Assembly (NCBI RefSeq): GCF_013265555.1
Contig: NZ_CP041345.1
Location: 2,464,581-2,528,580, forward strand
DNA: 64,000 nt
Direction of reading: 5' to 3'
DNA from: Tenuifilum thalassicum
Lineage (GTDB): Bacteria > Bacteroidota > Bacteroidia > Bacteroidales > Tenuifilaceae
Positions within the stretch are counted from its first letter, which is position 1. Every line of letters begins with the position of its first letter. Below the pieces are notes generated by a model. That model worked only from the letters and a program-made list of their open reading frames with translations, did no database searches and was not told the DNA's origin. Shown in pieces: positions 25,595-40,896 of this stretch. A program made the position numbers and the translations under genes.

Positions 25595-25613
25595 CTTTAT
25601 CGTACTGAATATC

Positions 25614-25644
25614 AAAAGAGAGGGAATTCCCCTCTCTTTTTTTT
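25614..25644 (+). terminator. Terminator of the nfeD-floA operon
   Basis: A nearly perfect hairpin AAAGAGAGGG / CCCTCTCTTT ends in eight T, 20 bases after the floA stop. Confidence 0.85.
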
Positions 25645-25654
25645 CAATAAATAT

Positions 25655-25685
25655 TTTGTACATATTATAGGATTTTATACTTTTG
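25655..25685 (+). promoter_or_regulatory. Promoter of the tRNA-Ser/tRNA-Pro operon
   Basis: TTTG at 25655-25658 (-33) and TACTTTTG at 25678-25685 (-7) are 19 bases apart, the best full-length Bacteroidota promoter in the window. It lies 40 bases before tRNA-Ser. Confidence 0.75.
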
Positions 25686-25725
25686 CGATGCTTTAGACGA
25701 AAGCATGGCTTAGTTAACAAAGCCC

Positions 25726-25816
<91 letters not shown>

Positions 25817-25830
25817 GTGAAAAACATAAT

Positions 25831-25904
25831 CGGGGTGTGGCGCAGTTGGTTAGCGCACCTGCTTTGGGAGCAGGGGGTCGTGCGTTCGAGTCGCACCACC
25901 CCGA
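25831..25904 (+). tRNA. tRNA-Pro (UGG)
   Basis: CGGGGTG pairs with CACCCCG, discriminator A. The anticodon arm is CCTGC-TTTGGGA-GCAGG (UGG). The T-arm is GTGCGTTCGAGTCGCAC. No CCA is encoded. Its 3' half and terminator are the source of the downstream tandem array. Confidence 0.95.
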
Positions 25905-25905
25905 C

Positions 25906-26775
25906 TCGAAGGGAGGCTTTAAAGGCCTCCCTTTTTTTTTACACTACCCTCACAAGTTGGTAGCGCATCCCGACCGGGTCGGGAGGGGCGGGCGTTCGAG
26001 TCGCAACACCCCGACTCGAAGGGAGGCTTTAAAGGCCTCCCTTTTTTTTTACACTACCCTCACAGACTGGTAGCGCATCCCGACTGGAGTCGGGAGGGTC
26101 GTGCGTTCGAGTCGCACCACCCCGACTCGAAGGGAGGCTTTAAAGGCCTCCCTTTTTTTTTACACTACCCTCACAAGTTGGTAGCGCATCCCGACCGGGT
26201 CGGGAGGGGCGGGCGTTCGAGTCGCACCACCCCGACTCGAAGGGAGGCTTTAAAGGCCTCCCTTTTTTTTTACACTACCCTCACAGACTGGTAGCGCATC
26301 CCGACTGGAGTCGGGAGGGGCGGGCGTTCGAGTCGCAACACCCCGACTCGAAGGGAGGCTTTAAAGGCCTCCCTTTTTTTTTTACACTACCCTCACAGAC
26401 TGGTAGCGCATCCCGACTGGAGTCGGGAGGGTCGTGCGTTCGAGTCGCACCACCCCGACTCGAAGGGAGGCTTTAAAGGCCTCCCTTTTTTTTTACACTA
26501 CCCTCACAAGTTGGTAGCGCATCCCGACCGGGTCGGGAGGGGCGGGCGTTCGAGTCGCAACACCCCGACTCGAAGGGAGGCTTTAAAGGCCTCCCTTTTT
26601 TTTTACACTACCCTCACAGACTGGTAGCGCATCCCGACTGGAGTCGGGAGGGGCGGGCGTTCGAGTCGCACCACCCCGACTCGAAGGAAGGCTTTAAAGG
26701 CCTCCCTTTTTTTTTACACTACCCTCACAGACTGGTAGCGCATCCCGACTGGAGTCGGGAGGGGCGGGCGTTCGA
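25906..26775 (+). repeat. Tandem array of tRNA-Pro-derived units, each with a terminator (7 full + 1 truncated)
   Basis: Units start at 25906, 26016, 26127, 26237, 26348, 26460, 26570 and 26681, with spacing of 110-112 bases. Each has the perfect hairpin AAGGGAGGC-TTTAAAG-GCCTCCCTT with a T run, then ACACTACCCTCAC, then a tRNA-like piece. That piece is TGGTAGCGC (D-arm remnant), a strong hairpin TCCCGA...TCGGGA in place of the anticodon arm, then the T-arm GCGTTCGAGTCGCA and the 3' acceptor CACCCCGA. The 5' acceptor strand is missing. Two variants alternate as A B A B B A B B. The last unit stops within the T-loop at 26775. No TAnnTTTG lies inside the units. Array function is unknown. Confidence 0.9.
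25909..25941 (+). terminator. Terminator of the tRNA-Ser/tRNA-Pro operon (copied in every array unit)
   Basis: The perfect hairpin AAGGGAGGC / GCCTCCCTT with a run of about ten T starts 5 bases after the tRNA-Pro 3' end. Copies recur at about 110-base intervals through 26710. Confidence 0.9.
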
Positions 26776-40813: not shown

Positions 40814-40822
40814 AGATTTACG

Positions 40823-40896
40823 TCGGGGTGGGGAGACTCGAACTCCCGGCCTCTACGTCCCGAACGTAGCGCGCTAGCCAACTGCGCCACACCCCG
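40823..40896 (-). tRNA. tRNA-Pro (CGG)
   Basis: CGGGGTG / CACCCCG acceptor with discriminator A. The anticodon arm is CTACG-TTCGGGA-CGTAG (CGG) and the T-arm is GGGAGTTCGAGTCTCCC. It is a second proline isoacceptor, related to tRNA-Pro(UGG) at 25831. Confidence 0.94.

Follow-up and report, generated by a model that had tools for sequence, protein, structure and literature searches.

The tyrT distal repeats (rtT) of Escherichia coli are tandem units of 178 bp behind a tRNA gene, and each carries the 3′ end of the tRNA. tRNA 3′ ends are also common attachment (att) sites, with core sites that are inverted repeats around the anticodon loop, and integrative elements that target tRNA genes leave copies of tRNA 3′ ends. 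REP elements, with their RAYT transposases, are short GC-rich palindromes found in many copies. SegB, encoded in the tRNA clusters of phages T4/T6, is a free-standing GIY-YIG homing endonuclease (PMC13096335, PMC2988022). According to one report, the enzyme of phage T6, encoded beside tRNA genes, drives recombination-dependent tandem tRNA-segB amplification (PMC13096335). Here we describe a tandem array behind tRNA-Pro(tgg) in a stretch of 64,000 nucleotides of Tenuifilum thalassicum (NZ_CP041345.1, positions 2,464,581 to 2,528,580; hereafter the window). Our best explanation, to which we give a probability of about 45%, is that the array is a nuclease-less member of a tRNA-anchored family, in which a GIY-YIG nuclease would break tRNA genes at the anticodon arm and drive tandem amplification.

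The array and its surroundings are listed in Table 1. TRF reported a period of 111 with 8.1 copies and 94% matches at 25875-26775, and the unit starts gave spacings of 110-112, which confirmed the tandem array behind tRNA-Pro(UGG) of a preliminary description made from the sequence. That account counted eight units; eight are present, but only seven are complete. What the complete units retain of tRNA-Pro is the D-arm’s 3′ end (GGTAGCGCA), the T-arm region and the 3′ acceptor strand, together with its terminator. A perfect terminator had been ascribed to every unit, and this was true of units 1-6, while unit 7 has one mismatch and unit 8 has no terminator. The anticodon arm is replaced by TCCCGAC-CGG-GTCGGGA or TCCCGACT-GG-AGTCGGGA, with a perfect stem in all eight units that is 7-8 bp long and not 6 bp as first given. 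CCCGA..TCGGG palindromes occurred eight times in the window compared to a mean of 0.15 expected from 100 shuffles. The identity of unit 1 with unit 6 and of unit 2 with unit 5 agrees with the recent expansion or homogenisation suggested earlier. The T-stem, read by eye from the unit sequences, was fully paired in units 2 and 5 only.

Table 1. Positions of the tRNA operon, its terminator and the eight repeat units in the window.
Feature	Position	Strand	Evidence or remark
Promoter-like -7 box of the tRNA operon, TACTTTTG	25678..25685	+	Only motif match in 25601-25726
tRNA-Ser(gct), intact	25726..25816	+	ARAGORN, Rfam
tRNA-Pro(tgg), intact, source of the units	25831..25905	+	ARAGORN, Rfam
Intrinsic terminator of the operon, with copies in units 1-7	25909..25940	+	Sequence, folding
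Unit 1	25941..26050	+	Palindrome TCCCGAC-CGG-GTCGGGA 25968-25984; identical to unit 6
Unit 2	26051..26161	+	Palindrome TCCCGACT-GG-AGTCGGGA 26078-26095; identical to unit 5
Unit 3	26162..26271	+	Palindrome core 26190-26204
Unit 4	26272..26383	+	Palindrome core 26300-26315
Unit 5	26384..26494	+	Palindrome core 26412-26427; identical to unit 2
Unit 6	26495..26604	+	Palindrome core 26523-26537; identical to unit 1
Unit 7	26605..26715	+	Palindrome core 26633-26648; one mismatch in terminator
Unit 8, truncated after GTTCGA	26716..26775	+	Palindrome core 26744-26759

None of the units was called as a tRNA by ARAGORN. In the Rfam covariance search only the two tRNAs reached the gathering score and the matches within units were weak, far below threshold, which agrees with the earlier remark that the units were not recognised as a described element. 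RF04351 (plastid psbl-rps4 3′UTR) scored 52 bits against a threshold of 68 at 25761-25814 on the minus strand, antisense to tRNA-Ser; this model seems to contain a piece of tRNA-Ser. A third Pro tRNA, Pro(cgg), is found at 40822-40896 on the minus strand of the window; its terminator is normal and no units follow.

Next to other tRNA genes of the same genome, a whole-genome search with one unit found two more arrays and a palindrome search another two. These were at tRNA-Pro(ggg) (two units), tRNA-Val(tac) (one unit upstream and two downstream), tRNA-Ala(ggc) (two units) and a tRNA with a CAU anticodon (two units). At the five loci the unit flanks were those of the local tRNA and the anticodon arm was TCCCGA..TCGGGA, with centre letters often resembling the anticodon loop of the tRNA concerned (TTAC at Val, AGGCAA at Ala, TGG at Pro). 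At a sixth locus, that of tRNA-Met, the palindrome is TCAGGC-CAA-GCCTGA and two GIY-YIG genes are present, one of them interrupted by an in-frame stop. No GIY-YIG match was found within the window’s range of the genome; four small GIY-YIG genes sit elsewhere in it. Near genome position 2697557 (L164), a small GIY-YIG gene lies away from tRNAs, within dispersed TGTCATGCTGAGCTTG..CTCGGGATGACA repeats. Behind the Pro(ggg) array (L042:1300-1880) there is a gene for a PF13366 PD-(D/E)XK nuclease of the GxxExxY type among short ATTCGTG-rich repeats.

The palindrome in a tRNA context was detected in 41 of 296 Bacteroidota genomes, an even draw across the window’s phylum, compared to 2 for the reversed control. 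Thus the array is not unique to one strain; confinement to one strain, with no transcripts, had been named in the preliminary description as a sign of chance duplication. A scan of species genomes for the same motif gave at least 118 stretches, 80 of which were analysed. By title, 67 of the 80 loci were Bacteroidota or subgroups and the remaining ones included Ignavibacteria, Acidobacteria, Calditrichaceae, Marinimicrobia, Kiritimatiellae, Patescibacteria and others. Judged by these sequences, the window array belongs to a family of tRNA-anchored repeats that is widespread in Bacteroidota. We found no published description of such repeats in the open-licence PMC literature, so their novelty is unproven.

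As reconstructed from the loci, the complete form of the family consists of an intact tRNA, a terminator, a small GIY-YIG gene, a D-arm end, the palindrome, the tRNA 3′ half and a terminator, often in tandem. A mirror form, reconstructed in the same way, is located upstream of a tRNA and has the 5′ half as far as the palindrome. Geometry was scored for 135 palindromes in the 80 loci, of which 100 were within 1.5 kb of a same-strand tRNA and 35 were left unclassed. Units with only a 3′ half were downstream of the tRNA in 44 cases, between tRNAs in 3 and upstream in none; those with only a 5′ half were upstream in 21 cases, downstream in 5 and between tRNAs in 3. By the threshold used, nine palindromes had both tRNA halves and 15 had neither. 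Both the 3′-half and the 5′-half units end at the palindrome in the anticodon arm, as would be expected if the DNA breaks there. At L240 (G273), TCCCGA-ATTTA-TCGGGA followed by CAAGCT lies within the T-arm/acceptor portion of a half-tRNA and looks like an insertion there; ARAGORN also calls intact tRNAs in tandem, Asp and Gly, at this locus.

Half-tRNAs were also searched for without the palindrome, as extra copies of the last 28 nt of the intact tRNA, at the loci of our own genome, of congeners, of the nuclease search and of tRNA-Arg. Of the 74 copies, several of which share an array and are not independent (28 loci come nearer to independence), 69 had a perfect stem of 6 bp or longer directly upstream, compared to 217 of 5600 shuffled 36-mers. 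The 74 copies remained from 76 rows after a chance match 3 kb off (L043) and an intact copy of the tRNA next to an assembly gap (L229) were dropped; the five palindrome-less copies were retained. In the 28 loci the outer six stem letters were TCCCGA (18), TCCCGC (4), TTCCGA (2), and CCACGC, TCCGTC, TCCGCC and CCCCGA (1 each). Stem pairs were changed at all six outer positions, and since these stems were sought as Watson-Crick pairs only, this result shows changing letters and says nothing on wobble. In the TCCCGA palindromes, where the pattern fixes the first six pairs and only the inner pairs are informative, the seventh pair was Watson-Crick in 144 of 157 and G-U in 2, compared to a maximum of 92 Watson-Crick in 10,000 shuffles. 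The scarcity of G-U at this pair points to pairing that acts in DNA rather than RNA, or to young palindromes. DNA folding of two units and of the tRNA arm gave similar energies.

A small GIY-YIG frame was present in 49 of the 80 palindrome-scan loci, mostly a few hundred bases from a palindrome, and absent in 31. At L116, counted among the 49, the frame is 4 kb away on the other strand. Next, the Val-linked nuclease alone was searched against 119 genomes of the window’s class, and 26 genomes, our own included, had a match. Of the 26 non-own loci scored (L259-L283 and L285, from 25 genomes), 21 had a complete same-strand tRNA ending at most 300 bp upstream; L271 and L285 are near-copies in one genome. 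The distance was 18-137 bp, and 18-68 bp in 19 of the 21. No such tRNA was found within the stretch examined at L263, L267, L271, L278 and L279; L263 and L279 begin near a contig end. Behind the nuclease, several of the nuclease-only loci carry a palindrome-bearing half-tRNA. Overall, 66 of 103 domains were scored as tRNA-adjacent, at least three of them (L062, L086, L088) on ARAGORN calls that are palindrome units. Five tandem GIY-YIG genes were seen at 450-bp spacing in G236:C1:120132-122135, and five at 315-bp spacing in G294:C1:2945594-2947066.

Pfam detected the GIY-YIG domain (PF01541) in both nucleases scanned, alone and with no DNA-binding module, in proteins of about 85 residues. Most copies look active, as the catalytic Y, Y, G, R and E columns were conserved in 72-75 of 75 nucleases. 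In the PDB the matches were UvrC, at E=0.07, and a designed protein. A phage origin was considered as well, but when 50,697 phage records were searched by tblastn with one Arg-linked nuclease, nothing matched at E≤1e-3.

The nuclease tree was made with 75 nucleases, one row per locus, 59 of them with a tRNA label, and 84 columns; 32 of its 72 inner branches are open. L163 and L284, which repeat included loci, and domains under 60 bits were omitted. The tRNA labels needed 17 changes on this tree compared to a shuffled mean of 29.6, and 0 of 200 shuffles were as low. Val, Ala, Met and Arg labels clustered (as low in 0 to 1 of 500 shuffles), Lys labels clustered less (9 of 500), and Pro and Ile labels showed no clustering. 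Host families were mixed within the tRNA groups. Descent at each locus could account for part of the clustering by tRNA.

Turnover was seen between relatives. A sample of one tRNA-Arg locus each from 30 of 40 genomes of one genus contained five loci with nuclease and units, three with a nuclease and no detected unit, four with units only and 18 with neither; one locus scored as empty, L310, has just 93 nt to judge. Some genomes have several such tRNA clusters and the 30 loci are not all one site. The flank of L293 resumes behind the last unit when compared to the empty L294 (69.6% over 493 bp), and flanks also aligned between L290 and L304 (80.0% over 1318 bp) and between L288 and L315 (79.9% over 269 bp), which supports the same site for these pairs. 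tRNA-Arg loci of one genus therefore exist both filled and empty. In the window’s genus, the Pro(tgg) array has eight units here, five in G296, at least three in G301 (assembly gap), one in G298 and at least one at the contig end in G299. No units were found in G303 or in the 225 nt examined of G297. The stem was CCCGCC in G296, G301 and G299 and CCACGCC in G298.

The tRNA-anchored family, its GIY-YIG link, the clustering of nucleases by tRNA, the filled and empty congeners and an inverted repeat with changing letters, each apparent in the sequences compared, are what our best explanation is built on. A GIY-YIG nuclease would cut the tRNA gene at the anticodon arm, and repair would copy whichever tRNA half borders the break. 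The copies would survive only once the arm had become a palindrome resistant to recutting. Unequal recombination would then lengthen or shorten the array and may drop the nuclease gene, so that nuclease-free passive DNA would remain, as in the window array. Since this array does not have a nuclease gene of its own, we regard it as no more than a nuclease-less derivative of this family; no host function is demonstrable for it. It is possible, and we suggest this more tentatively, that the family represents phylum-wide minimal mobile elements on tRNA genes, with single-domain tRNA-specialised GIY-YIG nucleases, palindromes proof against recutting and nuclease-free tandem derivatives.

Several observations count against the nuclease model. 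One is that no GIY-YIG gene adjoins the window array. The 31 palindrome loci with no GIY-YIG frame, the absence of a recognised DNA-binding module from the two nucleases scanned, and the Pro- and Ile-linked nucleases that do not group on the tree also weigh against it. Another is that the intact tRNA, the presumed target, adjoins the nuclease gene. Donor alleles are reported to be typically cut inefficiently (PMC13096335), and similar behaviour here would ease this last objection.

Another possible explanation is passive slippage or unequal recombination beside tRNA genes, where the nuclease genes hitch-hike and the palindromes come from a dispersed repeat. Identical and near-identical units would be produced in this way, and exchange between arrays within a genome fits it too; in G296, unit sequence is common to both Pro arrays at 82-84% over 509-623 bp. 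TCCCGA palindromes away from the motif exceeded the control in 14 of 15 other genomes, which fits a dispersed repeat and counts against the nuclease model. The genome-level link between motif and GIY-YIG genes was weak and likewise counts against that model. The median number of GIY-YIG matches per genome was 6.5 with the motif and 5.5 without it (one-sided P 0.08), and at least three matches were found in 37 of 40 genomes with the motif compared to 28 of 40 without it (P 0.02). However, in our own genome 17 of 42 forward CCCGA..TCGGG matches are in the five arrays, and the other 25 are no excess over the reversed control (23). Passive duplication also leaves unexplained why 69 of 74 half copies have a palindrome at the same arm and why the nuclease lineages cluster by tRNA. 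We therefore consider it unlikely, though it is the most serious of the alternatives.

The palindrome could instead be the working site itself, either for a structure-specific GIY-YIG or other protein acting on an extruded hairpin or as a recombination or insertion end, with the tRNA as a mere anchor. The pairing is kept while the letters change, and the spacer ranges from 2 to 10, which would be odd for a linear dimer site. At L268 and L276 the palindrome lies within the anticodon loop or directly behind it and looks like an insertion, and at L240 it is in the T-arm region. On the other hand, it is the anticodon arm that the palindromes occupy, and which half is copied mostly goes with the side of the tRNA, suggesting that the tRNA arm is the breakpoint, and no enzyme is known here that acts on palindromes. 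This makes the palindrome doubtful as the primary site.

Expression of the units as tRNA-like decoy or small RNAs, the decoy having been one suggestion of the preliminary description, is very unlikely. TAnnTTTG is the -7 consensus of Bacteroidota promoters, and TACTTTTG is what we take, by this consensus, to be the -7 box of the tRNA operon. TTTG is absent from both strands of the window array, in accord with the earlier statement that the units contain no promoter, as far as this Bacteroidota-type motif is concerned. The array sits behind the terminator of tRNA-Pro and then further terminators in series, and probably little RNA is made from it beyond the first ones. The perfect hairpins and terminators would suit an RNA, and upstream arrays between a likely promoter and the tRNA, such as that of L237, may be transcribed. 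However, G-U at the seventh stem pair is limited to the two cases given above, the T-stem has decayed in most window units, and the units are not in Rfam. Moreover, a T-run of five or more T is absent behind 14 of 47 3′-half-only and 23 of 29 5′-half-only units at loci outside the window, suggesting that terminators are not the feature kept. An RNA function of the units thus appears unlikely. In L237:1-2001 (G132), five 90-bp units are located upstream of tRNA-Asp and downstream of the likely promoter, and may be co-transcribed with the tRNA. A role as a terminator battery or insulator was also considered and is disfavoured by the missing T-runs.

Tandem remnants of integrase attachment sites at the tRNA gene, another earlier suggestion, would suit the position of att sites at tRNA 3′ ends and their inverted-repeat cores at the anticodon loop, but integrases were not found at the array ends in our genome. 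The nearest of four tyrosine recombinase matches in our genome is about 39 kb from any array, and upstream 5′-half units are unexpected from att duplication. An att origin is therefore largely refuted in this genome and is highly improbable. Least probable of all is a REP origin with dispersal by a RAYT (Y1) transposase, which would match the short palindromes and their many copies in other genomes but is disfavoured here by the lack of any Y1_Tnp match in our genome, when 5 of 14 control genomes were positive, and by the lack of palindrome excess outside its arrays.

If the nuclease model is true, a class of small Bacteroidota GIY-YIG genes would be parts of a tRNA-anchored selfish element and the half-tRNA repeats would be its footprint. 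The SegB principle of a homing nuclease and tandem amplification beside tRNAs would then extend from phages to bacterial chromosomes, and the family would illustrate how DNA disrupting an essential gene family can be tolerated. The model predicts cleavage of the cognate tRNA gene, immunity of the palindrome copies and nuclease-dependent array length. Half-tRNA palindrome repeats look like a little-noticed kind of selfish DNA.

Like rtT, the units here form tandem repeats behind a tRNA gene and carry the tRNA’s 3′ end, but rtT has longer units and a shorter tRNA piece and is not known to have an anticodon palindrome or a nuclease. REP elements share the short GC-rich palindromes in many copies; in contrast, our genome has no Y1 transposase and the palindromes are tied to tRNA copies. 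Integrative elements that target tRNA genes also give copies of tRNA 3′ ends, whereas here no integrase is near the arrays of our genome and mirror units with 5′ halves exist. The likeness to SegB is in the GIY-YIG gene beside tRNA genes and the tRNA-plus-nuclease segment in tandem (PMC13096335, PMC2988022). Unlike SegB, the family is chromosomal in bacteria and not of phage, its nuclease has about 85 residues with no DNA-binding domain recognised, and it includes half-tRNA copies with an anticodon-arm palindrome and nuclease-free arrays. The window array, which has no nuclease gene of its own, is not SegB-like in that respect. The nuclease-bearing arrays appear to share with a SegB-like system the catalytic domain, the tRNA beside the gene and the filled and empty alleles, and by this analogy we propose that they may work as a SegB-type homing system in which the nuclease would cleave the tRNA gene.
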